From a virus: 64,000 nucleotides of DNA. Positions 1,027 to 60,200 of the stretch are shown here, one piece after another. Position 1 is the stretch's first letter, and every line of letters begins with the position of its first letter. Both the position numbers and the translations under genes were made by a program. Location of the stretch: positions 1 to 64,000 of IMG/VR virus record IMGVR_UViG_3300022752_000055; one strand, written 5' to 3'. Below the pieces are notes generated by a model, which ran no database searches, was not told where the DNA came from, and worked only from the letters and a program-made list of their open reading frames with translations.

Positions 1027-3087
1027 ATGAATGAATTAATGGATGATGATGACAAAATGATGAATAAGAAAAAAACTTCATCAGATAGTGATACACCAGT
1101 ATTAGACAATTTCAGTAGGGATTTAATTAAACTTGCTGAAAAGGGTAAATTAGACCCGGTTATTGGTAGAGAAAAAGAAATTCTACGTATCGCACAGATT
1201 TTATCTCGTAGAAAGAAAAACAACCCAATTATTATTGGTGACCCGGGTTGTGGTAAGACCGCAATTGTTGAGGGATTGGCAATTAAAATTGTTAATGGTG
1301 ATTGTCCAAAAAACTTGGTAGATAAGAGGATTGTTGAACTTGATTTGACTTCAGTTGTTGCCGGAACAAAATACAGAGGACAATTTGAAGAAAGATTAAA
1401 GGTTATTATGGAAGAACTCCGAAGTAATCCAAACATTATTGTCTTTATTGACGAAATTCACACCTTGGTTGGTTCAGGAAACTCTTCAGGCTCAATGGAT
1501 GGTTCCAACATCTTTAAACCCGCCCTTGCTCGTGGAGAATTGCAATGTATTGGTGCGACAACCCTAAATGAGTTCAGAAAGAATATTGAAAAGGATGGGG
1601 CGTTAGAACGCAGATTCCAAAAAGTTATTGTTGAACCATCTTCTGTTTCAGAAACAATCACAATCCTTAAAAGTGCTCGTGAAAAATATGAAACATACCA
1701 TAAGGTAACCTATAGTGATGAAGTGATTGAAGCTTGTGTTAAACTTGCGGATAGATACATCACGGATAGAGGTTTTCCTGATAAAGCGTTTGACATTTTG
1801 GATGAAGTTGGGGCAAGAATGCAAACTGAACTAAAAGTTCCGGAAGAAATTGAGATATTGAAAAAGCAGGCAGCAGAATTAAAACAAATAAAGGTGGATG
1901 TTGTTAAAAGACAACAATACGAAAAAGCTGCAGAGTTAAGAGACAAGGAGAAAAAACTTATAGCCAAATTAGACGCCGAAAAGAAGAAGTTTGAAGAACA
2001 GATGCAAAAAGAAAAACAAAAAATATCTGTTGAAGATGTTTATTCTGTTGTATCAACAATGACAAACATTCCCGTAAGTAAAATGAACGTGGATGATAAT
2101 AAAGCGTTAATCAATCTTGATAAATCTTTGATTGATAAGGTTATAGGACAGAACAATGCGGTTATTAAGATTGCAAAATCAATTAAAAGAAACAGATTAG
2201 GTATCAAAGACCCAAATCGTCCAATCGGCTCATTCGTATTTCTTGGTTCAACCGGTGTTGGTAAGACATATCTCGCAAAACAACTTGCAAGAGAAATGTT
2301 TGGTAGTGAAGATTCACTTATCAGAGTTGATATGTCAGAATACCAAGAGAAACATAGTATATCAAAAATGTTAGGCACTACCGCTGGTTATGTTGGGTAT
2401 GATGATGGAGGATTTTTAACTGAAAAAGTAAAAAATAAACCATATTCTGTAATTTTATTTGACGAGGTTGAGAAGGCTCATAAAGACATATTCACAATAT
2501 TACTTCAAATTTTAGATGATGGGTATGTGACTGACGGACAAGGTAGAAAAATCAACTTCAAAAATACTTTAATCATTTTGACTTCAAATATCGGAGTTAA
2601 AAAATTACAGGACTTTGGAACAGGAATTGGTTTTAGCACAAATGCTTACAGCAATGAAGAAGCTAAAAAACAAATGTTAATGAAAGAAATGAAAAACTTT
2701 TTCTCTCCTGAATTTATCAATAGGATTGATGATACAATAGTATTCAACACATTAAATTCTGACGATATTAAAAAAATTACTAAAATTGAATTAGATAAGT
2801 TAATGGAAAGAATTAAAGGGATGAATTATACTTTCACATATGATGATAAATTGGTTGATTTAATACATAAAGTGGGGTATGATGAAACTTATGGAGCAAG
2901 ACCAATTAAAAGAGCAATTCAAGATAGGGTTGAGGATTACATCTCAGAAGAAATACTTAAAGGTATTGTTAAAGAAGGAGAATCTAGATTTATTGATGTT
3001 ATTGACGACCAATTAGTTTTGATTCAATCGCCCGAAGTAGAAGAGGAAACCAAGAAAAGAACAAGAAAAAAGAGAGGGGTTAATTAA
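1027..3087 (+). CDS. ClpC/ClpA-like AAA+ unfoldase with ClpP-docking loop
   Basis: 686 aa with two AAA+ modules: Walker A GDPGCGKT at 71-78 and GSTGVGKT at about 407-414; Walker B motifs FIDEIHTL and [10 protein letters not shown]; arginine-finger region ALERRFQ in module 1 and FINRID in module 2. A UVR-like [15 protein letters not shown] segment near 296-310 marks the ClpC type, and the long ClpB coiled-coil M domain is absent. The N-terminal double-Clp-N domain is also missing. GIGF at about 530 matches the IGF/LGF loop that docks on ClpP, and this window encodes ClpP at 13655-14332, so a phage ClpCP protease is likely. Alternative: a disaggregase without protease. Confidence 0.92.
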
Positions 3088-13654: not shown

Positions 13655-14332
13655 ATGAATAATCAATTAGAATTTCAAAAGTATTACACCAAACATTTGG
13701 GTAAAGGTTCATTAGACCTACACTATCACAATCAAGTTATTGAATCATCTATGACACCTTATATCCTTGAGGAAAGGGAAATGAGGGTTACACAGATGGA
13801 TATCTTTTCAAGATTACTTCGTGACAGAATATTATGGGTTGCAGGAGTTGTTGATGATAGAATGTCAACAGTAGTTCAAGCTCAACTTATGTTCTTGGAT
13901 AATACAGACAAGGCGGATATTACAATGCATATTGACTCCGGTGGAGGCTCGGTCAAATCAGGTCTTTCTATGGTTGATGTTATGAATTATATTGCTTGTG
14001 ATGTAAGAACTGTCAATACAGGAATGGCGGCTTCTATGGGTTCCGTATTGCTCGGAGCGGGCACAAAAGGTAAAAGAAGTTCATTGAGATTTTCAAGAAC
14101 TATGTTACATCAATCATCAGGAGGGTTTAGTGGTAACATTCAAGATGCCGAAATTGATATGAAAGAGTGGCATAAAGTTAATAAAACCCTTTTCGAACTC
14201 CTTGGTGAGTATTGTGGAAAACCTGCGGAAAAAGTAATGAAAGATGCTCAAAGAGACTTATGGTTGGATAGTCAGGAATCTTTAGATTATGGTATTATTG
14301 ATGAAATTGTTAAAACAAAAAAAATTAAATAA
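13655..14332 (+). CDS. clpP: ClpP-family serine protease
   Basis: 225 aa. Catalytic Ser in GMAASMGSVLLGAG (about 126), His in TMLHQSSGG (about 151) and the Asp region QRDLWLDSQES (about 200); MHIDSGGGSVKSGL is the substrate-binding strand. Head regions are complete, so it should form the tetradecamer. ClpP-fold proteases serve as prohead proteases in some phages, but the phage-encoded ClpC-like partner with its IGF loop favours an AAA+ protease. It could also digest the tmRNA-tagged products made from the ssrA gene in this window. Confidence 0.9.
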   Translation: MNNQLEFQKYYTKHLGKGSLDLHYHNQVIESSMTPYILEEREMRVTQMDIFSRLLRDRILWVAGVVDDRMSTVVQAQLMFLDNTDKADITMHIDSGGGSVKSGLSMVDVMNYIACDVRTVNTGMAASMGSVLLGAGTKGKRSSLRFSRTMLHQSSGGFSGNIQDAEIDMKEWHKVNKTLFELLGEYCGKPAEKVMKDAQRDLWLDSQESLDYGIIDEIVKTKKIK

Positions 14333-36694: not shown

Positions 36695-37279
36695 TTATTT
36701 TATCACGAAAAATGATGTAGGTGTCACTTCCCCCAAGTTTATTTGCTCTTGTATCCAATCAAAAGAGGCACTTACAACTTGACGAGGTGTTATTTCCTCC
36801 GATTTTAATTGTTCTTCCACCACTTTTAGATGATAAGTACTTAAAGTCACATTAGGTTTTATTTCCACATATTTTACCGAGTCTAACTTTCTCCAACTAG
36901 ATGGTGGTGCTATGGCACATCTTGGTGTTACTTCCTCCTTTTCTAAATCACGCCAAATTTGTGTTGGTATTGACTCTTTTGGTGTTATTTCCTCCCGATT
37001 TAATCTTAGCTCCGCCAATTGGCAAATGAGATTCACATCTTTAACGGGTTTTATTTCCACCGATTTTAATTCTTCTTGCACCCTCATCAATTGATTTGTA
37101 ATACTGGTATGTGGTATAACTTCCTCTGATTTTAATTGTTTTTCCATAAATGGAAGGTAGTTTCTTCCAGCGTCCAAAGGTGTAACTTCCTCCGATTTTA
37201 ATTCTTCTTCCACAACCACAAATGAAAGTGGTTTATCCCATTTAGGTGTCACTTCCCCCGATTTTATTTGTTGTTCCAT
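36695..37279 (-). CDS. 22-residue repeat protein, 194 aa
   Basis: Nine imperfect copies of a 22-residue unit whose constant part is EEQLKSEEVTP and whose other half varies (e.g. LDAGRNYLPFM, KESIPTQIWRD). The frame is continuous with the upstream 99-aa gene: that gene's TAG at 37280-37282 is followed directly by this ATG in the same phase. It may be a separate protein, or a nonsense-split extension of the 99-aa gene. Confidence 0.65.
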   Translation of the reverse strand: MEQQIKSGEVTPKWDKPLSFVVVEEELKSEEVTPLDAGRNYLPFMEKQLKSEEVIPHTSITNQLMRVQEELKSVEIKPVKDVNLICQLAELRLNREEITPKESIPTQIWRDLEKEEVTPRCAIAPPSSWRKLDSVKYVEIKPNVTLSTYHLKVVEEQLKSEEITPRQVVSASFDWIQEQINLGEVTPTSFFVIK

Positions 37280-37345
37280 CTATGAGTCTGAAGTGAAACC
37301 ATTAGCAATAGGTGTCACTTCCCCCGATTTTATTTGTTGTTCCAT
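36720..37345 (-). repeat. ten-unit tandem repeat array, 66-bp period
   Basis: Units begin with GGTGT.A.TTCC.CC on the plus strand at 36720, 36786, 36855, 36924, 36981, 37047, 37113, 37179, 37245 and 37311. Spacings are 66, 69, 69, 57, then 66 five times, all multiples of three. The last two units share 35 identical bases. Conserved half about 36 bp, variable half about 30 bp. Confidence 0.9.
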
Positions 37346-37579
37346 CCATTCTTTTATAAGTTGTTGGGTTTCTTCGTAATCATAGGAAAACATATCGGAG
37401 ATGTCAGTCCAAACTGAATATAAAACCCATAATGTTCCGGACTTTTCCAATTCTAATATTACCTTATCATTCTTTTTAAAAAAAATAGAGTCAGGATAAA
37501 ATTTTGATTTAACCGAATACATATTTTCAAACAAATAATTCAAAAACTTAAACTCACTTTTTCTTATTTTATCTTTCAT
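37280..37579 (-). CDS. paralogue of the class-B body family, 99 aa
   Basis: Body FLNYLFENMY..KKNDKVILELE, VWTDISDMFSYDYEETQQL and IKEWMEQQ is clearly homologous to the tagged 55400-55732 protein (FLDYLFEG equivalents, WEDISNMFSLDYYETQEL) but with the N-terminus MKDKIRKSEFK in place of the class-B tag. Its last residues enter the 66-bp repeat array and it stops with TAG. Host-type TATATTTG box upstream. Confidence 0.75.
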   Translation of the reverse strand: MKDKIRKSEFKFLNYLFENMYSVKSKFYPDSIFFKKNDKVILELEKSGTLWVLYSVWTDISDMFSYDYEETQQLIKEWMEQQIKSGEVTPIANGFTSDS

Positions 37580-47075: not shown

Positions 47076-47663
47076 TTATTTTGATTTCATATACTTAGCA
47101 TATCCTTTCCGGATTTTATTGGTGAAATGTTTTGAAAGTTCAAAAAATCCTTCAACATCATCGACCTCACCATTTTCATCTTCATACATAGTTAAAGTAC
47201 GCCACTCAATCTCCCCTCTATAATCCTTATAATCTTCGGCGTCAAATTCATTGGGGGTGGTTTCAGATATTGCAGTATCTAAAAACTCTTCAAAAATTTT
47301 AATTCTCCTTCTATAAAAAGTATCAACGGATTCAGTTATATCATCGTCATCATAAAATTCCATAACCCCATCATAATAACTTTCAATATCATCCCAATAG
47401 GTTTTTAAAATATATTCCATAAGTTCATCAAGTTCTTTGGGGGTTAAATCTAAACCACACATATCAACAACTTTTAAAACAATTTCATCAGCATACTCGT
47501 CTAAACTATATTCTTCAGGGTCAGTCTCAGTAAGAGAATCATTAACATATTCATCAATGTTTTCCATTCTTCTCTTTATGAATAAACTCATATCTTCATT
47601 TATAATCTTTTTAACAATTCTATTTAAATCCGATTCAGTTAATCTTACTATTCTGTTTGCCAT
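47076..47663 (-). CDS. class-A tagged protein with internal duplication, 195 aa
   Basis: MANRIVRLTESDLNRIVKK + IINE|D tag. The body repeats a unit: RRMENIDEYVNDSLTETDPE (about 30) and RRRIKIFEEFLDTAISETTP (about 120), the second preceded by DITESVD, which looks like a relict class-B tag (ITE). The same RRR..I..FLD..L..T.P core is the whole body of the class-B tagged 47755-48027 protein. So a body family appears with different tags. Confidence 0.82.
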   Translation of the reverse strand: MANRIVRLTESDLNRIVKKIINEDMSLFIKRRMENIDEYVNDSLTETDPEEYSLDEYADEIVLKVVDMCGLDLTPKELDELMEYILKTYWDDIESYYDGVMEFYDDDDITESVDTFYRRRIKIFEEFLDTAISETTPNEFDAEDYKDYRGEIEWRTLTMYEDENGEVDDVEGFFELSKHFTNKIRKGYAKYMKSK

Positions 47664-52783: not shown

Positions 52784-53140
52784 TTATTTCTCTATATTAT
52801 TTTTATAATACTCCGCAATCTTATCGTAATACATTGTTTTAAAAAACTCTCTTAGTTCCTCTTCCTCATCATCTGTAATAATCATTTCCGGTTCTAATTC
52901 TCCTTCATCCCAATTTTCAAATATAGGGGAAATGTTATCAATATAAAAACCATCAATAACACTATCAATAAACCACTCAATACCTTTCTCTTTTAATCTT
53001 GTTTTGTAATAATTAAAAGTCCATATTGTTGATTCAAGAATAAGTTCATCAATGTCATTCAATCTTCTTACCACCATGTTGATGAGTTTTCTATCAACTT
53101 CTTCCTTTAATACTTTTCTTATTATTTGTTGTATACTCAT
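52784..53140 (-). CDS. class-C tagged protein, 118 aa
   Basis: MSIQQIIRKVLKEEVDRKLI: class-C tag with VLKE|E. The following VVRRLNDIDELILES again resembles the RRR..ID..L body. C-terminal EFFKTMYYDKIAEYYKNNIE. So this body occurs with tags A, B, C and none. Confidence 0.78.
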   Translation of the reverse strand: MSIQQIIRKVLKEEVDRKLINMVVRRLNDIDELILESTIWTFNYYKTRLKEKGIEWFIDSVIDGFYIDNISPIFENWDEGELEPEMIITDDEEEELREFFKTMYYDKIAEYYKNNIEK

Positions 53141-53697
53141 TTCTCTATGTTATTTCCCCCGCCATCTAGTTTATCTGTAAATCCCATTAACTTGTCAAAT
53201 GCCGGGTGTAATGATATCGGTTCCTTCTTTGTATCTCTCATTGCATCCCACGTGCTAGGTTTAACCTTCATATGGTTTTGAACCAAGTACTTTATCTCAT
53301 CAATATCCGTTCCATCAAATGTTAATATCCAATCCTTAAATTGTTCCACATAATTCGTAGATTTGTTCTCGTGCCCGTATGCCGTTGGTTCCCCCGTTTT
53401 TGGATTAATACCATATGTATCCATCTTCCCCAAGTCATGGAATAGTGCCGCCATAATCATATTGACATCATCAGGATAGTGATGATATGCCCTCTTTATA
53501 ACAACGAGTATATGTTTTAAACTATTTCCCTCCGGATGCCACTTCGGGTTTTGCTTTGCTCCCCATTGCTTAAATAACAACTTCTTTAATTCTTCCGGTA
53601 AAGTCCTAATTAACTCATTTGGCGTTGCAGGCAATTTTTCCTCACATATAAGGTTAATAACTTGTTTTATTCTCTGTATGTTTTCTTGTAGGTTCAT
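53137..53697 (-). CDS. class-C tagged HD-domain phosphohydrolase
   Basis: 186 aa. MNLQENIQRIKQVINLICE|E leader. HD domain: His in SLKHILVVIKRAYHH, HD in ALFHDLGKMD, His in YGHENKS and a late Asp in GFTDKLDGGG. Metal-dependent hydrolase of nucleotides, cyclic nucleotides or RNA 2',3'-cyclic phosphates. If packaged it would act early after injection, e.g. on a signalling nucleotide; inference. Confidence 0.85.
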   Translation of the reverse strand: MNLQENIQRIKQVINLICEEKLPATPNELIRTLPEELKKLLFKQWGAKQNPKWHPEGNSLKHILVVIKRAYHHYPDDVNMIMAALFHDLGKMDTYGINPKTGEPTAYGHENKSTNYVEQFKDWILTFDGTDIDEIKYLVQNHMKVKPSTWDAMRDTKKEPISLHPAFDKLMGFTDKLDGGGNNIEK

Positions 53698-54143
53698 ATC
53701 TTAATTATTAATACATTTGGTGTTATTCCTATTGCCGCTGCGGTGCATAATCTTGTATTACCCGCAACTAAATGATATCTATTTCCAAACTGAATTATCA
53801 TAGGTGGATTATAATCACCCGATTCCAAACTCTTTTTTAATTTGTTTGGGTTTGTTTTATTATACTTCTTTGCAATTTTTTCCACCGATTTTATATCTCC
53901 TTTATCTATTTCATTTGACTCCGTATTTTCCAACTTGGACCATATTGACTTTGTTAGTTTCTTTGGTTCCGCATTTTTAAATTTTTCTTTAACTTCCTTA
54001 ACCGAAATATCAATATCTTCATCCCTTGATAAATCCTGAACAGCCCTTTCAATCTCATCCATTTCTGAATTGATATATGATTTGGTGGATTCATTAATCC
54101 CCATCATCTGTTTAATCCTATGTATGTTTTCTTGTAAGTTCAT
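53694..54143 (-). CDS. class-C tagged ParB/sulfiredoxin-like protein
   Basis: 149 aa. MNLQENIHRIKQMMGINE|ST leader. C-terminal 50 residues LKKSLESGDYNPPMIIQFGN, YHLVAGNTRLCTAAAIG are a ParB/Srx-like nucleotide-binding core (the GxTR...A box). ParB-like domains may act as CTPases, nucleases or kinases. Overlaps the HD gene by 4 nt: an operon of tagged enzymes. Confidence 0.8.
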   Translation of the reverse strand: MNLQENIHRIKQMMGINESTKSYINSEMDEIERAVQDLSRDEDIDISVKEVKEKFKNAEPKKLTKSIWSKLENTESNEIDKGDIKSVEKIAKKYNKTNPNKLKKSLESGDYNPPMIIQFGNRYHLVAGNTRLCTAAAIGITPNVLIIKI

Positions 54144-54144
54144 T

Positions 54145-54561
54145 TTACTTTTTTTTCTTTACACAATTTGGATATCTTTTACCAAACATTGTTTTCATCC
54201 CCTTTTGGGTATATCCCGCCCAACATCTTTCAGTTATTTCACCTTCATTCTGCTCTTCTTTACGAGGTTTATCTAGTTCGTTAACAGATTTTACAAATCT
54301 ACGACATTTATCACTAACTCCACCCTTTTCGTGGTCGGTTATTGATATTTTAACCTTGTTGTAATTTATTGTAATGTTCGGATGATGGTTTTGTTGTTCA
54401 GCTATCTTCGCAACTTTATTAACAAAATCAATTGAATCATTAAACTCTTTGAATTTAAATGTTTTTTCCAATTTTTGCTTTGAGTCACCCCAACCTTTGG
54501 ATTCGTTTACATCCATTACCATTTCCAATAATGCTTGTCTTATATTTTCTTGTAAGTTCAT
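54145..54561 (-). CDS. class-C tagged pterin-dehydratase-like protein with CW-GY tail motif
   Basis: Start at 54559-54561 (MNLQENIRQALLE|MV). Residues 35-90 resemble pterin-4a-carbinolamine dehydratase: FKFKEFNDSIDFVNKVAKIA, then NHHPNITINYNKVKI and TDHEKGGVSD with the conserved His-His-Pro. The C-terminus CWAGYTQKGMKTMFGKRYPN, CVKKKK is a separate short motif seen on other phage proteins. 138 aa. Enzymatic or transcription-modulating role unknown. Confidence 0.82.
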   Translation of the reverse strand: MNLQENIRQALLEMVMDVNESKGWGDSKQKLEKTFKFKEFNDSIDFVNKVAKIAEQQNHHPNITINYNKVKISITDHEKGGVSDKCRRFVKSVNELDKPRKEEQNEGEITERCWAGYTQKGMKTMFGKRYPNCVKKKK

Positions 54562-54594: not shown

Positions 54595-55014
54595 ATGAAA
54601 TATATAATAACTGAGGAACAATTAAAAGGTATTAACAAAACAATTATTAAACTGATTGATACTGAAGGTATTTTTAAGGCTATTGATGTTGTTGGTGATT
54701 ATGATACCCTTAAAGAACTATTGGGTGATTATGAAATACCTAGACAACTTAAGATTGATACTATAAAAGAATTTATGAGTCAGAGAGCAGCAACCGGATT
54801 TCACCTCGGTGAATTTGATGAAGAACCAATACCTTATTTTGAAAATAATGATGGCTATCATCAAATTGAATATTTGGGACCATCAAAAGCAATAATTAAT
54901 GTGTGGGGTGGTTATAATGGTCAAACTGATTTGGGTGAATATGGAGTATCTTATGGAGATTTACCTGAAAAGTCATTAGATGACATAATCGAAATGTTAA
55001 TCAACCATTACTAA
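54595..55014 (+). CDS. class-B tagged protein, 139 aa
   Basis: MKYIITEEQLKGINKTIIKL; body with YDTLKELLGDYEIPRQLKID and IINVWGGYNGQTDLGEYGVS. First of seven tandem plus-strand genes, most with the same N-terminal tag. Stop overlaps the next start (TAATG). Confidence 0.82.
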   Translation: MKYIITEEQLKGINKTIIKLIDTEGIFKAIDVVGDYDTLKELLGDYEIPRQLKIDTIKEFMSQRAATGFHLGEFDEEPIPYFENNDGYHQIEYLGPSKAIINVWGGYNGQTDLGEYGVSYGDLPEKSLDDIIEMLINHY

Positions 55015-55397
55015 TGAAATATATAATAGACGATTTTAGTGAAGAGCAATTAATGAAAATTATTCGTAAATTTGTTCGTCACATATACGGAAAAGATTTA
55101 ACTATGGTTGAGGATAGTGAAAGATATATTAAATTCTTTTCAGTTGGACCGGTACCACCATACCATAGAAATATGGCGGGTCGCTTATGGGTTTATGATG
55201 ATAGATTAATAAACATAATTATGGACTTTTTTTCAACCGATTACGACCAAGCACTTGGTTTGGTTGCATTCTATTTCTCAAACAAATATGACATTAAAAT
55301 AATGGATGCCAAAGTTCCATCTCACGTATTTTTTGGTAAAATAGATTATTCACGATTTGACGATGAGAATTACCATATTGAAGATGATGAAGATTAA
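55014..55397 (+). CDS. class-B-like tagged protein, 127 aa
   Basis: MKYIIDDFSEEQLMKIIRKF: tag with an insertion after MKYII. Body GRLWVYDDRLINIIMDFFST then YFSNKYDIKIMDAKVPSHVF follows the family pattern (Asp-rich helix, W/F helix, end strand). Confidence 0.78.
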   Translation: MKYIIDDFSEEQLMKIIRKFVRHIYGKDLTMVEDSERYIKFFSVGPVPPYHRNMAGRLWVYDDRLINIIMDFFSTDYDQALGLVAFYFSNKYDIKIMDAKVPSHVFFGKIDYSRFDDENYHIEDDED

Positions 55398-55744: not shown

Positions 55745-56044
55745 ATGAAATACATTATAACGGAAGAACAAAACTATTATTTAAGAAGATTACGTATTAT
55801 TGATAATTTAATTAAAAGTTCTCTTGAAATGTTTGATTTATGGGGAATTAAAAAAATAGATGTTGATTATATGATTAAATTTCTCACAACAGATGTTACT
55901 GAATCTTATTTTTTTAAATTCAGTGACGACATTTATGTTGGCGGTGAGGAATATGATGAATTAACCGATTTTGTTGAATCGTATTTAAATAGTAGTTGGA
56001 GAGATAAACTTGAAAAAATAATAAAAAGTAAGAAAGGAAAATGA
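55745..56044 (+). CDS. class-B tagged protein, 99 aa
   Basis: MKYIITEEQNYYLRRLRIID followed by NLIKSSLEMFDL: same RR..IDNLI body type as 47755-48027. Ends in a Lys-rich tail. Overlaps the next gene by 4 nt. Confidence 0.8.
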   Translation: MKYIITEEQNYYLRRLRIIDNLIKSSLEMFDLWGIKKIDVDYMIKFLTTDVTESYFFKFSDDIYVGGEEYDELTDFVESYLNSSWRDKLEKIIKSKKGK

Positions 56045-56352
56045 AATACGTTATAACTGAAGAACAACAAAAAAGTTTAAAAAACCATATGTTAGAACTT
56101 TTAAATTATAGTTTTAAAGATAGTAATATTGTTTGTGAAATAAAAGTAACCGATGTTGAAGAAGATGATGATGATTATAACGACGGATTAAGATATGATA
56201 TTTACGTTTTCATTAACTCCTCGTTCACTAGAGCTGTCGGCATTTACGGATATAAAGTTGCAACACAAAGAAAAATAGATTCCTTAATGGAAGATTGGTT
56301 TGGATTAAATAAAAACGAATATTACGTTTCAATTTCCGCTAAAGATTGTTAA
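56041..56352 (+). CDS. class-B tagged protein, 103 aa
   Basis: MKYVITEEQQKSLKNHMLEL; strands CEIKVTDVEEDDDDYNDGLR and YDIYVFINSSFTRAV, then helix KIDSLMEDWFGL and end strand YYVSISAKDC. Family body with W(F)GL end. Confidence 0.8.
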   Translation: MKYVITEEQQKSLKNHMLELLNYSFKDSNIVCEIKVTDVEEDDDDYNDGLRYDIYVFINSSFTRAVGIYGYKVATQRKIDSLMEDWFGLNKNEYYVSISAKDC

Positions 56353-57100: not shown

Positions 57101-57564
57101 ACGTAAACGGGCACATTATTCTTTTCTTCTTCAGTTGGTGGAAATGCATAATATACGTTAAATAAACTATAGTGTGGTTCAAAACCTATATTTTCGGCTA
57201 ACTCCTCAATTTTTTGACTTAAAGCATATGGTTGTCCTTGATAACTTTTATCTATAAAACCTCTATCAATCTCACTTCCGTAATATAAAAACGTCTCTTC
57301 TTTTCTTGAATAATTACCCCAATTCTTACTTAGTTTCGTAAAGTATTCAGGTTTGATTTCTATTAGTATTCTTGCACCCCAAGTGTGTTTAGTTAATTCC
57401 CGATGGTGTTCCGTCTCTTCTTTTAATTCAATATAATAAACTCCCTCAACCCAAGGATAATCTCCTTTGTTTAAGATAATTTTATTTATCATCTTACCTA
57501 AAACTTCCTTTGATTGAGAATCGTCCTCTCTTAATACTTTTCTTATGGTTTCTCTTAAATTCAT
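57097..57564 (-). CDS. class-C tagged protein, 155 aa
   Basis: MNLRETIRKVLRE|DDSQ; body with ARILIEIKPEYFTKLSKNWG and IDRGFIDKSYQGQPYALSQK plus NVYYAFPPTEEEKNN. Unknown family. One-nt overlap with the next upstream gene. Confidence 0.8.
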   Translation of the reverse strand: MNLRETIRKVLREDDSQSKEVLGKMINKIILNKGDYPWVEGVYYIELKEETEHHRELTKHTWGARILIEIKPEYFTKLSKNWGNYSRKEETFLYYGSEIDRGFIDKSYQGQPYALSQKIEELAENIGFEPHYSLFNVYYAFPPTEEEKNNVPVYV

Positions 57565-58484
57565 TATGATTTTTTCTTAATTAATGAGAAGTAATATCTC
57601 ATAGTGTTAAACTTATCATCAGGTTCTACTATAAGTAATGGTTTATTATCATACATTGAATCCAATTTTTCTTTGATATCAACCCAATCTAAACTAGGAA
57701 ACCAAGTAGCATAGTTTTTTAATAAATCGTTCCAAGTTTTAAATGAATCACTAAAACCATTACCCCCGTTTCTGTCAGCATGTTTCCAAAATATATATGT
57801 GGTTCCTTCTTCGTCACCACTCTCATTATAAAAATTTGAAATATATTCCGCAATATCACTACCATACTTTTCCTTTAAATAATTTGCAATTTTTTTTTCT
57901 GCATCATGAAACTCATCATTATCTAAATGTGTATGTGTTGAATCAAGTATTTCATATGCTGTGTTCTTACAAGCCCACCAAACAACTACCGCAACTACTT
58001 TTTCTAATTTAAACGATTGAATTGCAAACTTTCTAAGATAATTAATTATCTCTTCATCTGTATATCTATTTCTTCTTCTTACAAATAAAGGTATTTCACT
58101 TTCTTCTTTTATTATTGATTCATCTATATTTTTACAATTTGGACGTGAACTACCATAGATATCAACTATAATCCCAAATGTATCAATTATTAAATCTTGA
58201 AGTTCATTCATAATTTTTTCTTCTTTGTTATGAACTGCCATAGTCTTCGGCCAATTTTTTGAGCCATGCCCCGAATCAAAATAAAGTGTAACTTTGAACC
58301 TTTGATACCTTTCTCCTGAATTTTTTGTTGCAAACTTTCCTAACTCTAACTTATAATCACAGATGTATTCTTTTTCTTCACTACTCCTTAAAAAATACTC
58401 TATCAGTTTTTTGAGTGGTACTGATAAATTTTTCTTTTTTTCCTCTTCTTTTAATACTTTTCTTATGGTTTCTTGTAGATTCAT
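57564..58484 (-). CDS. class-C tagged two-module protein, 306 aa
   Basis: Start at 58482-58484 (MNLQETIRKVLKE|EEKK). Residues 15-115 form one body (YKLELGKFATKN, TLYFDSGHGSKNW); near 118-135 the stretch NIDESIIKE|ESEIPLFVRR looks like a second, decayed tag; the rest is another domain (VVAVVVWWACKNTAYEILDS, YIFWKHADRNGGNGFSDSF). Appears to be a fusion of two tagged genes. Confidence 0.75.
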   Translation of the reverse strand: MNLQETIRKVLKEEEKKKNLSVPLKKLIEYFLRSSEEKEYICDYKLELGKFATKNSGERYQRFKVTLYFDSGHGSKNWPKTMAVHNKEEKIMNELQDLIIDTFGIIVDIYGSSRPNCKNIDESIIKEESEIPLFVRRRNRYTDEEIINYLRKFAIQSFKLEKVVAVVVWWACKNTAYEILDSTHTHLDNDEFHDAEKKIANYLKEKYGSDIAEYISNFYNESGDEEGTTYIFWKHADRNGGNGFSDSFKTWNDLLKNYATWFPSLDWVDIKEKLDSMYDNKPLLIVEPDDKFNTMRYYFSLIKKKS

Positions 58485-58488
58485 ATTA

Positions 58489-59310
58489 TTAATAACTTTC
58501 TCCCGTTCCTTCATAAATTAATTTTATACATTTGGATGGTATATTTTCAAATGTAAGTATATGATATTCATAATCCCCACCTCTATAATGTTTATCTTTA
58601 TACCAAGTAACTTCAGCACAATCTGTATTAATCAACCAAACATCATCATCCCAACTAGAATCAAACCAATAATTTTCATTTTCAGAGTCAGTCGCAAAAA
58701 TTGCTGGTTCACATTCTTCCTCACTAAAATTTTGTGAATAAGTTTTATAACAATCACCTACCGATGCTTGTAATCCTGTTTCAAGAATATTTTCTCTCCA
58801 AATAGGGTTTGATTTATGAATAACAAATCTATTAGGAAAATATTCATCACCCGCTGGCGAATATGTCTCTTCCTTTAATATTCTTCTTATGGTTTCTTGT
58901 AGATTATTTTTGTCTATTAACATTTCGTTAGGGTCAACACCCAATTCTTCTAAACTCCACAATATTTGGTTATATTTACCATCATAAATCTTTTTAACTA
59001 AATCATTTCTGTATGGTTCAGGGTTTGCGGTTTTTGTAATTGCATTGTAAATCCAACTATCCGGTTTCGCATCTAAAATATTTTTTAGTGTAATTAAATG
59101 AACGTATGGTTCTTTTAACCATTCTTTATAAGTTTTGGAGCTTGGGTCACCATCAATTGCTGGTGTTACAAACACCGCACCCACACTTATAAGTTTGTCA
59201 ACATCAAACGGGAGCCTATCCTCGTAAGGAATAGTATTTCTAGTCTCATCATAGTCATAAACTCTATCGTCTTCCTTTAATATTCTTCTTATGGTATGTC
59301 TTATATTCAT
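58489..59310 (-). CDS. fusion of two class-C tagged modules, 273 aa
   Basis: N-terminal tag MNIRHTIRRILKE|DDRV and a second full tag NNLQETIRRILKE|ETYS at about residues 133-147. Module 2 (FVIHKSNPIWRENILETGLQ, AIFATDSENENYWFDSSWDD, DVWLINTDCAEVTWYKD, FENIPSKCIKLI) has the layout of ADP-ribosyltransferase-like folds (H..., ...W.ID..., ...I). That assignment is weak. Cleavage at both tags would release two proteins. Confidence 0.8.
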   Translation of the reverse strand: MNIRHTIRRILKEDDRVYDYDETRNTIPYEDRLPFDVDKLISVGAVFVTPAIDGDPSSKTYKEWLKEPYVHLITLKNILDAKPDSWIYNAITKTANPEPYRNDLVKKIYDGKYNQILWSLEELGVDPNEMLIDKNNLQETIRRILKEETYSPAGDEYFPNRFVIHKSNPIWRENILETGLQASVGDCYKTYSQNFSEEECEPAIFATDSENENYWFDSSWDDDVWLINTDCAEVTWYKDKHYRGGDYEYHILTFENIPSKCIKLIYEGTGESY

Positions 59311-60200
59311 TAAGTGTTAACTTTTATCATATTATAAAAATAATTGGTAATTCCTTCAAAACTTTTTAAATTCTTTTGTTTCAAATCATCTCTTGTTTTG
59401 GAAATTAAATTTTCAAAATGTCGTAAAGGCACGCTACTATACATCGCGTTTATTTTTCTATCATCATCCTTATCTATTAAACCAATTTTAATAAATTCCC
59501 TTAATTTCCTTGTCGCAAATTCATCGGCAATTATCTCAACTTCTTTCATTGCTTTGGCAGCGTCCTCAACACTTACCTCACCCAAATAACATTCATACAT
59601 TTTATCATCACCATATTTTTTATATTGATATTGGTGTGCGATTTCGTGAGCCACCACAAATAAAAAAGACGATAATGGGTAATTAAAAATTGTTTCATTA
59701 AAGAGAACCCCATTATGTAACGCCAACCCCATCGCCGGAAATTTAAATTTGGAAACTTCTATCTTTTTGCAGTTTGAATTCTCTATAAATGATTTAATTT
59801 CGTCTATATATATTTCTGTTTCAGGATAAGTTGACATAATCCTATATAAGAATGGTCTAATTCCTTCCGTTTCTTCCTTTAATACTTTTCTTGTGGTTGA
59901 TTCTTTTATATTAACCGGAGTATCACAATCTAATCTTATTACGATTAGTTCAAGATGTGGTAAATAATCATTGATATTTTTACTTACAATATTTTCCATG
60001 TCGTGATTATGATAATCACTTTGAAGAATAACAAGATAATTTTTAATAATTTCACCATCTCCTGACTCATAGTCAATTACCCTAACTTGGACTCCGCATA
60101 AATGCTTAATATCCATACTCAAGACAATATCTTCAATATATTTGCACCACCTATCCTCCTTAAACTTATTTACCTGTGCTTCTGTTATAATGTATTTCAT
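59310..60200 (-). CDS. fusion: class-B module plus class-C-tagged zinc metallopeptidase
   Basis: Start at 60198-60200 (MKYIITEAQVNKFKEDRWCK). After a small body (GVQVRVIDYESGDGEIIKNY), an internal tag TTRKVLKE|ETEG lies at about 98-110. Module 2 carries FLFVVAHEIAHQYQYKKYG (HExxH zincin) with VEIIADEFATRKL providing the third ligand Glu. A class-C tag buried inside a class-B tagged protein fits modular shuffling. Peptidase would be released by cleavage. Confidence 0.82.
   Translation of the reverse strand: MKYIITEAQVNKFKEDRWCKYIEDIVLSMDIKHLCGVQVRVIDYESGDGEIIKNYLVILQSDYHNHDMENIVSKNINDYLPHLELIVIRLDCDTPVNIKESTTRKVLKEETEGIRPFLYRIMSTYPETEIYIDEIKSFIENSNCKKIEVSKFKFPAMGLALHNGVLFNETIFNYPLSSFLFVVAHEIAHQYQYKKYGDDKMYECYLGEVSVEDAAKAMKEVEIIADEFATRKLREFIKIGLIDKDDDRKINAMYSSVPLRHFENLISKTRDDLKQKNLKSFEGITNYFYNMIKVNT

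Follow-up and report, generated by a model that had tools for sequence, protein, structure and literature searches.

Several proteins of a virus genome fragment carry, in their interior, a second copy of the short tag with which they begin, which raises the question of whether formerly separate genes have been joined at these points and whether the joined chains would still be cut there. The window analyzed here comprises bases 1–64,000 of a 72,126-base IMG/VR virus record, a fragment from an uncultured phage with T4-like relatives. Small-protein genes of the window begin with one of three short tags, namely class A (M..IxRLTESDLxRLVRRVINE↓), class B (MKYIITE↓), or class C (MNLQETIRKVLKE↓), where the arrow denotes the predicted cut; an [IL]xE core forms the end of each tag in all three classes alike. 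According to the translations, a tag or its remnant also lies inside proteins of 273, 296, and 306 residues.

Inner tags in the window and related phages

In the related set, 213 proteins are strictly tagged, with an N-terminal propeptide of about 10 to 20 residues ending in [LI]xE, and P3 is I or L in 47 of 48 class-C tags. Inner tags were sought in 14 related records with a 13-position profile built on class-C start tags, at a threshold of 16 bits. Nine inner tags exceeded this threshold, every one of them scoring above 26 bits, compared with 0.1 expected in shuffled proteins. Hence, the inner tags at module junctions to which an earlier note on this DNA had drawn attention are real and far above chance. 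Searches of the 273-, 296-, and 306-aa proteins for polyvalent-protein domains gave no significant Pfam family and no PHROG of known function, and a phage collection contained no match for any of the three.

Modules of the fused proteins and their separate counterparts

The 273-aa protein (58,489–59,310, minus strand) consists of a class-C start tag (MNIRHTIRRILKE↓D), an N-module (residues 15–133; 58,912–59,268, minus), an inner class-C tag (NLQETIRRILKE↓E; 58,867–58,905, minus), and a C-module (residues 148–273; 58,492–58,869, minus). The second tag, previously put at about residue 133, is placed by the translation at residues 136–148, with the site as a whole reading NNLQETIRRILKE↓ET (residues 135–149) and the predicted cut falling after E147 (codon 58,870–58,872). 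At the DNA level, the inner tag matches the start tag of the neighboring gene (92% over 39 nt) and has 26 identical nucleotides with the protein’s own start tag. An IMG/VR search with the whole protein returned nothing, but an alignment of the C-module did find relatives. Six distinct relatives (G001/L125, L126, L127, L128, L129–131, and L133) have this module as a tagged gene of its own; it is fused in the window and G013 alone, and the N-modules of these two differ. L127 also has a standalone tagged gene of 120 aa that is homologous to the N-module (phmmer E = 7e-5; BLASTP 29% over 104 aa) and ends exactly at the residue where the linker of the window protein begins; the C-module gene lies two genes beyond it. 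The structure model of the 273-aa protein (mean pLDDT 45) was too poor to derive a function from it, and this attempt was dropped; in the low-confidence model, the C-half weakly resembles Tpt1/KptA and other ADP-ribosyltransferase-fold proteins (best Foldseek E value 0.1; 8tg3, probability 0.94). L133 (2855–12,339) represents a more distant phage in which many genes begin with a different tag (MKNLKTYKMFES, MKHLRRFNES), among them the standalone relative of the 273-aa C-module.

In the 306-aa protein (57,564–58,484, minus), a class-C start tag (MNLQETIRKVLKE↓E) is followed by an N-module (residues 14–117), a decayed site, and a C-module (residues 128–306). The decayed second tag, which had been suspected near residue 120, was located at about residues 118–128 (KNIDESIIKE↓E; 58,101–58,133, minus) and keeps the IxE core; read to residue 129, the remnant is KNIDESIIKE↓ES, with a predicted cut after E127 (codon 58,104–58,106). 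The N-module stands alone in L126 (130 aa) and G003 (103 aa), and the C-module does so in G010 (211 aa). The G001 counterpart has 422 aa and contains a third module, inserted between the two, which is homologous to a standalone tagged gene of 118 aa in the window (52,784–53,140, minus).

The 296-aa protein (59,310–60,200, minus) has a class-B start tag (MKYIITE↓A), an N-module (residues 8–92), an inner tag (NIKESTTRKVLKE↓E; residues 97–110; 59,871–59,912, minus) that is predicted to be an interdomain linker, and an HExxH peptidase module (residues 110–296; 59,313–59,873, minus). The inner site, reading NIKESTTRKVLKE↓ET at residues 97–111 with a predicted cut after E109 (codon 59,874–59,876), differs from a full tag by an additional codon (TCA) and an Ile to Thr change (ATA to ACA). 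The description of this protein in the earlier note, with a class-B start tag and a class-C core at about residue 98 right before an HExxH peptidase, stands as regards the two tags; since HEIAH occupies residues 185–189, however, the inner tag precedes the peptidase domain and not the HExxH motif itself.

All 39 relatives of the 296-aa protein found in IMG/VR match only from about residue 89 on, which corresponds to the peptidase half, and in most of them the peptidase is a separate gene of about 200 aa whose start is usually tagged. The tag directly before the standalone peptidase belongs to class C in L007 (77% identical), L008, L009, and L016, to class A in L011, L012, L014, and L019, and to class B in L013, L021, L027, and L032; thus, tag classes swap on one cargo. 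Fused peptidases occur in three places. The window protein is one of them; in L018 the peptidase is preceded by a class-B module (join RIINE↓ET), and in L020/G014 by 300 residues of KWTEDEI repeats (join RILRE↓ET). In the peptidase tree, the window protein pairs with the unfused L007 (support 100/99) and L020 with the unfused L016 (98/100), while L018 sits inside a class-A group of unfused genes. Each fused peptidase thus groups with unfused ones, implying three fusions, which, judging from this tree, look independent in origin. The N-module of the window protein has a 55% identical counterpart among the modules of the 536-aa chain of G001, where the peptidase gene comes next. Long KWTEDEIRxEASKYxSxxEF-repeat proteins with a class-B-like start tag were also observed in G010 (L059; 3413–5272 and 6163–7296) and in G014, as carriers ahead of different tagged cargoes.

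AlphaFold yielded a better model for the 296-aa protein (mean pLDDT 80), with an alpha-beta N-domain (residues 7–91) and a confident C-domain (about 110–293, mostly above 90). Residues 94–108, with pLDDT below 50, correspond to the inner tag and link the two separately folded domains; in the model, this stretch has the appearance expected of an exposed cut site. The H, E, and H of HExxH, as well as a downstream E and D, are invariant in 21 aligned peptidase sequences, and the module is a probable zincin. A SprT-like profile gave weak matches to nine of the 16 peptidase members scanned (best E value 0.0012) and none to the window protein. In a Foldseek search with the 296-aa model, the N-module dominated, and there was no peptidase match among the matches listed; bacterial genomes searched with the peptidase alignment contained no relative.

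On its sequence, a protein of 195 aa (47,076–47,663, minus), absent from the earlier note, is a fourth fusion case in the window. It comprises a class-A tag, a module, a DDDDITE↓S site (codon 47,331–47,333), and a second module homologous to the first (self-alignment score 70, compared with 50 as the highest of 500 shuffles). Chains of three to about five modules occur in relatives. Examples are a 536-aa chain of G001 (joins PVIEE↓S, TITE↓E, KITE↓D, and SLTE↓S), whose modules have relatives that occur alone elsewhere, a 333-aa chain of L128 (three modules, NESILRE↓ET at both joins), and a 492-aa chain of G013 (joins LNE↓S, INE↓S, and RVLRE↓ET); homology confirms part of the joins in these three chains, not all.

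Split versions in related phages, proposed as a check when the tags were first noticed, were thus found for both halves of the 273- and 306-aa proteins and for the peptidase half of the 296-aa protein. The inner motif sits where standalone homologues begin and standalone N-halves end, which bears out the idea of fused tagged genes. At the level of gene comparison, these data show fusion of formerly separate tagged genes for putative cargo proteins.

Retention of the cut core at the joins

Joins were located with alignments restricted to the mature portion of standalone tagged proteins, and [IL]xE was sought from 8 residues before to 4 residues after the predicted cut. The motif was present at 16 of 18 homology-defined joins of N-tagged fused proteins, against an expectation of 3.5 derived from these same proteins. 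Control motifs at the same joins ([IL]xD, 0 versus 3.6 expected; [IL]xK, 6 versus 4.2; [AFGM]xE, 3 versus 2.5) indicated no excess beyond [IL]xE. One of the two misses reads VTE↓E, and the position of the second (L015) seems wrong; among the 16 hits, that in G000_30709 probably results from misalignment, so that two of the 18 joins look artefactual in all. This strict test replaced an earlier, noisy one with loose class-B tags (35 of 60 versus 10.2 expected). In statistical terms, the test shows retention of the predicted cut core at the joins; in recent fusions, such retention may reflect lack of time.

Twenty inner sites were also compared position by position. All have E at P1 and I or L at P3, which is largely due to site selection (the list was picked for having [IL]xE, and only the 18-junction test is free of such choice), and P1′ is E or S in 20 of 20. 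A hydrophobic residue occupies P7 at eight of the 20 inner sites and in 48 of 48 class-C start tags (Fisher p = 2e-8). The T4 protease gp21 cleaves after L/I-X-E, and an aspartate in place of the cut residue prevents processing; within the IPIII tag, targeting depends on residues 4 and 7 and processing on residues 8 and 10 (PMC9026906), which correspond to P7, P4, P3, and P1 when numbered from the cut. By analogy with T4, then, the inner sites, in which P3 and P1 persist and P7 is often lost, would have preserved what processing requires and relaxed one position used in targeting. At decayed junctions (306-aa protein, 422- and 536-aa proteins of G001, L128, and L129), most of the tag is gone and [IL]xE is kept.

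Candidate proteases

Peptidase_S77, the family of the T4 gp21-type prohead protease, was found in G001, G012, G013, G033, and G034 (E value 1e-23 or better), all of which have tagged or fused genes; the 72-kb fragment that contains the window gave no S77 protease match and no gp23 match. Given this protease in relatives and the core at 16 of 18 junctions, the fused chains are probably cut. The gp23 homologues of three relatives (G001, G013, and G033; not the window) have a conserved LINE↓A at about residue 60. By gp23, Flavobacterium phage immuto, which infects Flavobacterium sp. LMO8, is among the nearest cultured phages (42% over 57% of the query), and its genome (NC_055915) has an annotated prohead core protease and several tag-like starts, for example MKKSQLRQIIKE.

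The window encodes a ClpA-like ATPase (1027–3087, plus) and a ClpP-type protease (13,655–14,332, plus), both in this one phage record. The latter matches Clp and head maturation protease profiles and was considered as the processing protease; it was rejected because of the ClpA-like ATPase in the same record and because the tag motif fits gp21 better.

Origin of the fusions and DNA of the tags

The fusions had been attributed to the joining of adjacent genes. This holds for G001, where stop and start were lost between neighbors; for G014, recombination within tag DNA looks the likelier route. In the window, a standalone gene of 127 aa (55,014–55,397, plus) ends with GAAGAT-TAA-TT-ATG-AAATATATTATAACAGAA, the next tagged gene starting there. 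Its G001 orthologue reads GATGATGATGAGGATATTATAACTGAA; stop and ATG are gone, and the frame continues into the following IITE↓S module. Between the split and the fused DNA, ATTATAACNGAA (IITE) is kept. The second module of this 230-aa G001 protein had, by eye, seemed to resemble the window gene at 56,041–56,352, for which BLASTP finds no similarity; hence, only the first half of the pair is orthologous.

The peptidase half of the G014 protein has 95.6% DNA identity to the unfused G010 gene from within the tag onward, and the part upstream follows a G010 repeat protein (69%) through the tag. Because the similarity to G010 switches in the tag, the exchange point lies there, and at least one fusion (G014) looks, from these alignments, as if it arose by recombination inside tag DNA.

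Class-C tags have unusual codon choices, seen across unrelated proteins in the window, G001, G010, G013, and L126–L129: CTA for Leu2 in 22 of 35 (compared with 8% of all Leu codons of the genomes concerned), ATA for Ile6 in 36 of 39 (34%), AGG for Arg11 in 17 of 25 (12%), and ACC for Thr5 in 12 of 12 (15%). Inner tags share these choices with start tags. This retention of rare codons suggests that the tags spread as DNA cassettes or have an added role at the DNA level. It is conceivable, if somewhat doubtful, that tag DNA is a movable cassette combining head address and cut mark, and that recombination in it joins, splits, and reshuffles polyprotein cargoes while leaving delivery intact.

Other repeated elements and enzyme-like genes

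An array of about nine units at a spacing of about 66 nt (41 nt conserved and about 25 nt variable) occupies 36,695–37,579 (minus). It is an open frame and lies behind a gene of 99 aa that itself has a 98% identical unit at its 3′ end. Similar arrays occur in G001 (131,974–132,828) and L126 (8205–8954); the array in the window resembles a store of alternative tails for a protein C-terminus. A conserved C-end tail of about 30 residues (CWxGYTQKGMKTMFGKRYPNCVKK) was seen at 54,145–54,558 (minus) of the window, at the C-end in L010, and in L057 (4646–4999), preceded by [IL]TE as if it were a further cuttable module. Three neighboring genes with MNLQENI-type starts (53,137–54,558, minus) gave a pterin-4a-carbinolamine dehydratase match, an HD domain match, and a weak ParB-like resemblance; such enzyme-like cargo may hint at host functions that are targeted on entry.

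Discussion

Most likely, judging from the genes and their relatives, the proteins described here are capsid-targeted cargo fusions that are still cut at inner sites, a polyprotein-like variant of the T4 internal head proteins. In this scheme, small cargo genes with short N-terminal capsid-targeting tags would have been fused in frame, either by loss of stop and start between neighboring tagged genes or by recombination within near-identical tag DNA. The first tag would carry the entire chain into the forming head, where a protease of the T4 gp21 type would remove it and also cut the inner [IL]xE↓[E/S] site, so that two or more cargo proteins would be freed inside the capsid and delivered with the DNA. 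Once the genes are fused, the inner tag would no longer need its targeting part, which would decay, with the cleavage core held by selection. We assign the explanation as a whole, from tagged fusions through packaging and cutting to delivery, a probability of about 0.72. Packaging in the head is inferred, and cutting there and delivery to the host are likewise probable.

The fusions could be real and yet remain uncut. Each chain would then be injected whole as a protein of several domains, between which the old tag would provide no more than flexibility, an arrangement that has been proposed for many polyvalent proteins. Such multi-domain proteins are common in phages, the N4 virion RNA polymerase is packaged unprocessed (PMC5512222), and AlphaFold predicts the inner tag of the 296-aa protein to be an unstructured linker. 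A plain linker, however, need not hold I or L at P3 and E at P1 when the remainder of the tag changes, as 16 of the 18 joins do, and the L128 and G001 junctions have been shortened down to the cut core, which makes this reading unlikely. Persistence of the motif as a non-functional leftover of fusion, kept only because the fusions are young, would fit the full-length inner tags of the 273-aa protein, G013, and G014, which look recent, and the near identity (about 96%) of the fused G014 peptidase gene to its unfused G010 sister; [IL]xE is nonetheless kept at old, decayed junctions, and we consider a mere leftover improbable. Translation might also start internally at the inner tag, so that the second cargo would be produced as a tagged protein of its own. 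An ATG (M129) does lie seven codons ahead of the tag in the 273-aa gene, and a 234-aa ORF of L128 keeps an in-frame ATG at its inner tag. In the window, however, neither gene retains a start codon at the tag (AAT is present there in the 273-aa gene and GTT in the 296-aa gene), ATG, GTG, and TTG are all absent from the approximately 25 codons before the tag of the 296-aa gene, and decayed sites drop the targeting half while keeping the cut core, leaving very little room for this idea. Readings in which the motif belongs to a single conserved domain, resembles a tag by chance, or stems from faulty assembly are ruled out by split relatives whose genes begin or end at the join, by the expectation from shuffled proteins, by the codon choices shared with start tags, and by the occurrence of such fusions in many independent assemblies.

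Cut cargo fusions, the reading preferred here, would resemble the T4 internal proteins (IPI–III and Alt; PMC9026906, PMC5694885) in the short N-terminal propeptide that ends in L/I-x-E and is cut after E, in the sharing of a tag by many unrelated cargoes, and in the S77 protease and gp23 capsid protein of related phages. In the T4 cases described (PMC9026906, PMC5694885), end propeptides are removed or core proteins are shredded, whereas the chains described here have the site in their interior as well, where domains meet, with two to about five modules per chain, and there are three tag classes and dozens of tagged genes. Several cuts per head protein are known from the giant phages phiKZ and SPN3US, where a gp21 homologue cuts after [A/S]-x-E (PMC10052503). 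The inner cuts in these proteins break up a propeptide that is discarded, and 13 of 14 sites remove N-terminal propeptides (PMC10052503); here, in contrast, folded domains lie on both sides of the site, each found alone elsewhere. Polyvalent proteins, known from phages and from conjugative elements, likewise combine several effector-like domains, including a zincin metallopeptidase, and have been proposed to be processed, with processing assigned to the chain’s own zincin domain (PMC5512222). Unlike in these proteins, the joins described here are copies of a capsid-targeting tag with the prohead-protease motif, and the modules belong mostly to unknown families of about 100 aa.

A literature search of incomplete coverage found no description of cargo polyproteins cut by a prohead protease. 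The chains are polyprotein-like in that separately existing domains are joined in one frame, with a protease motif at the joins. RNA-virus polyproteins yield several products from one frame through short viral-protease sites at the joins. The chains share with them the single frame and the protease sites, predicted here, at the joins; they differ in being a small accessory cargo set of a tailed dsDNA phage, with the protease encoded apart and with split and fused forms both present in close relatives.

If the proposed scheme is true, prohead proteases are more than trimmers, in that they turn fused chains into sets of separate injected proteins, and gene prediction in these phages therefore reports too few delivered proteins and puts their ends in the wrong place. 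Mature cargo could then be predicted by a simple rule, [IL]xE↓[E/S] between modules. The scheme would account for the reshuffling of a large effector set at low cost, and it would represent a natural design for bringing several proteins into one capsid with a single address tag.
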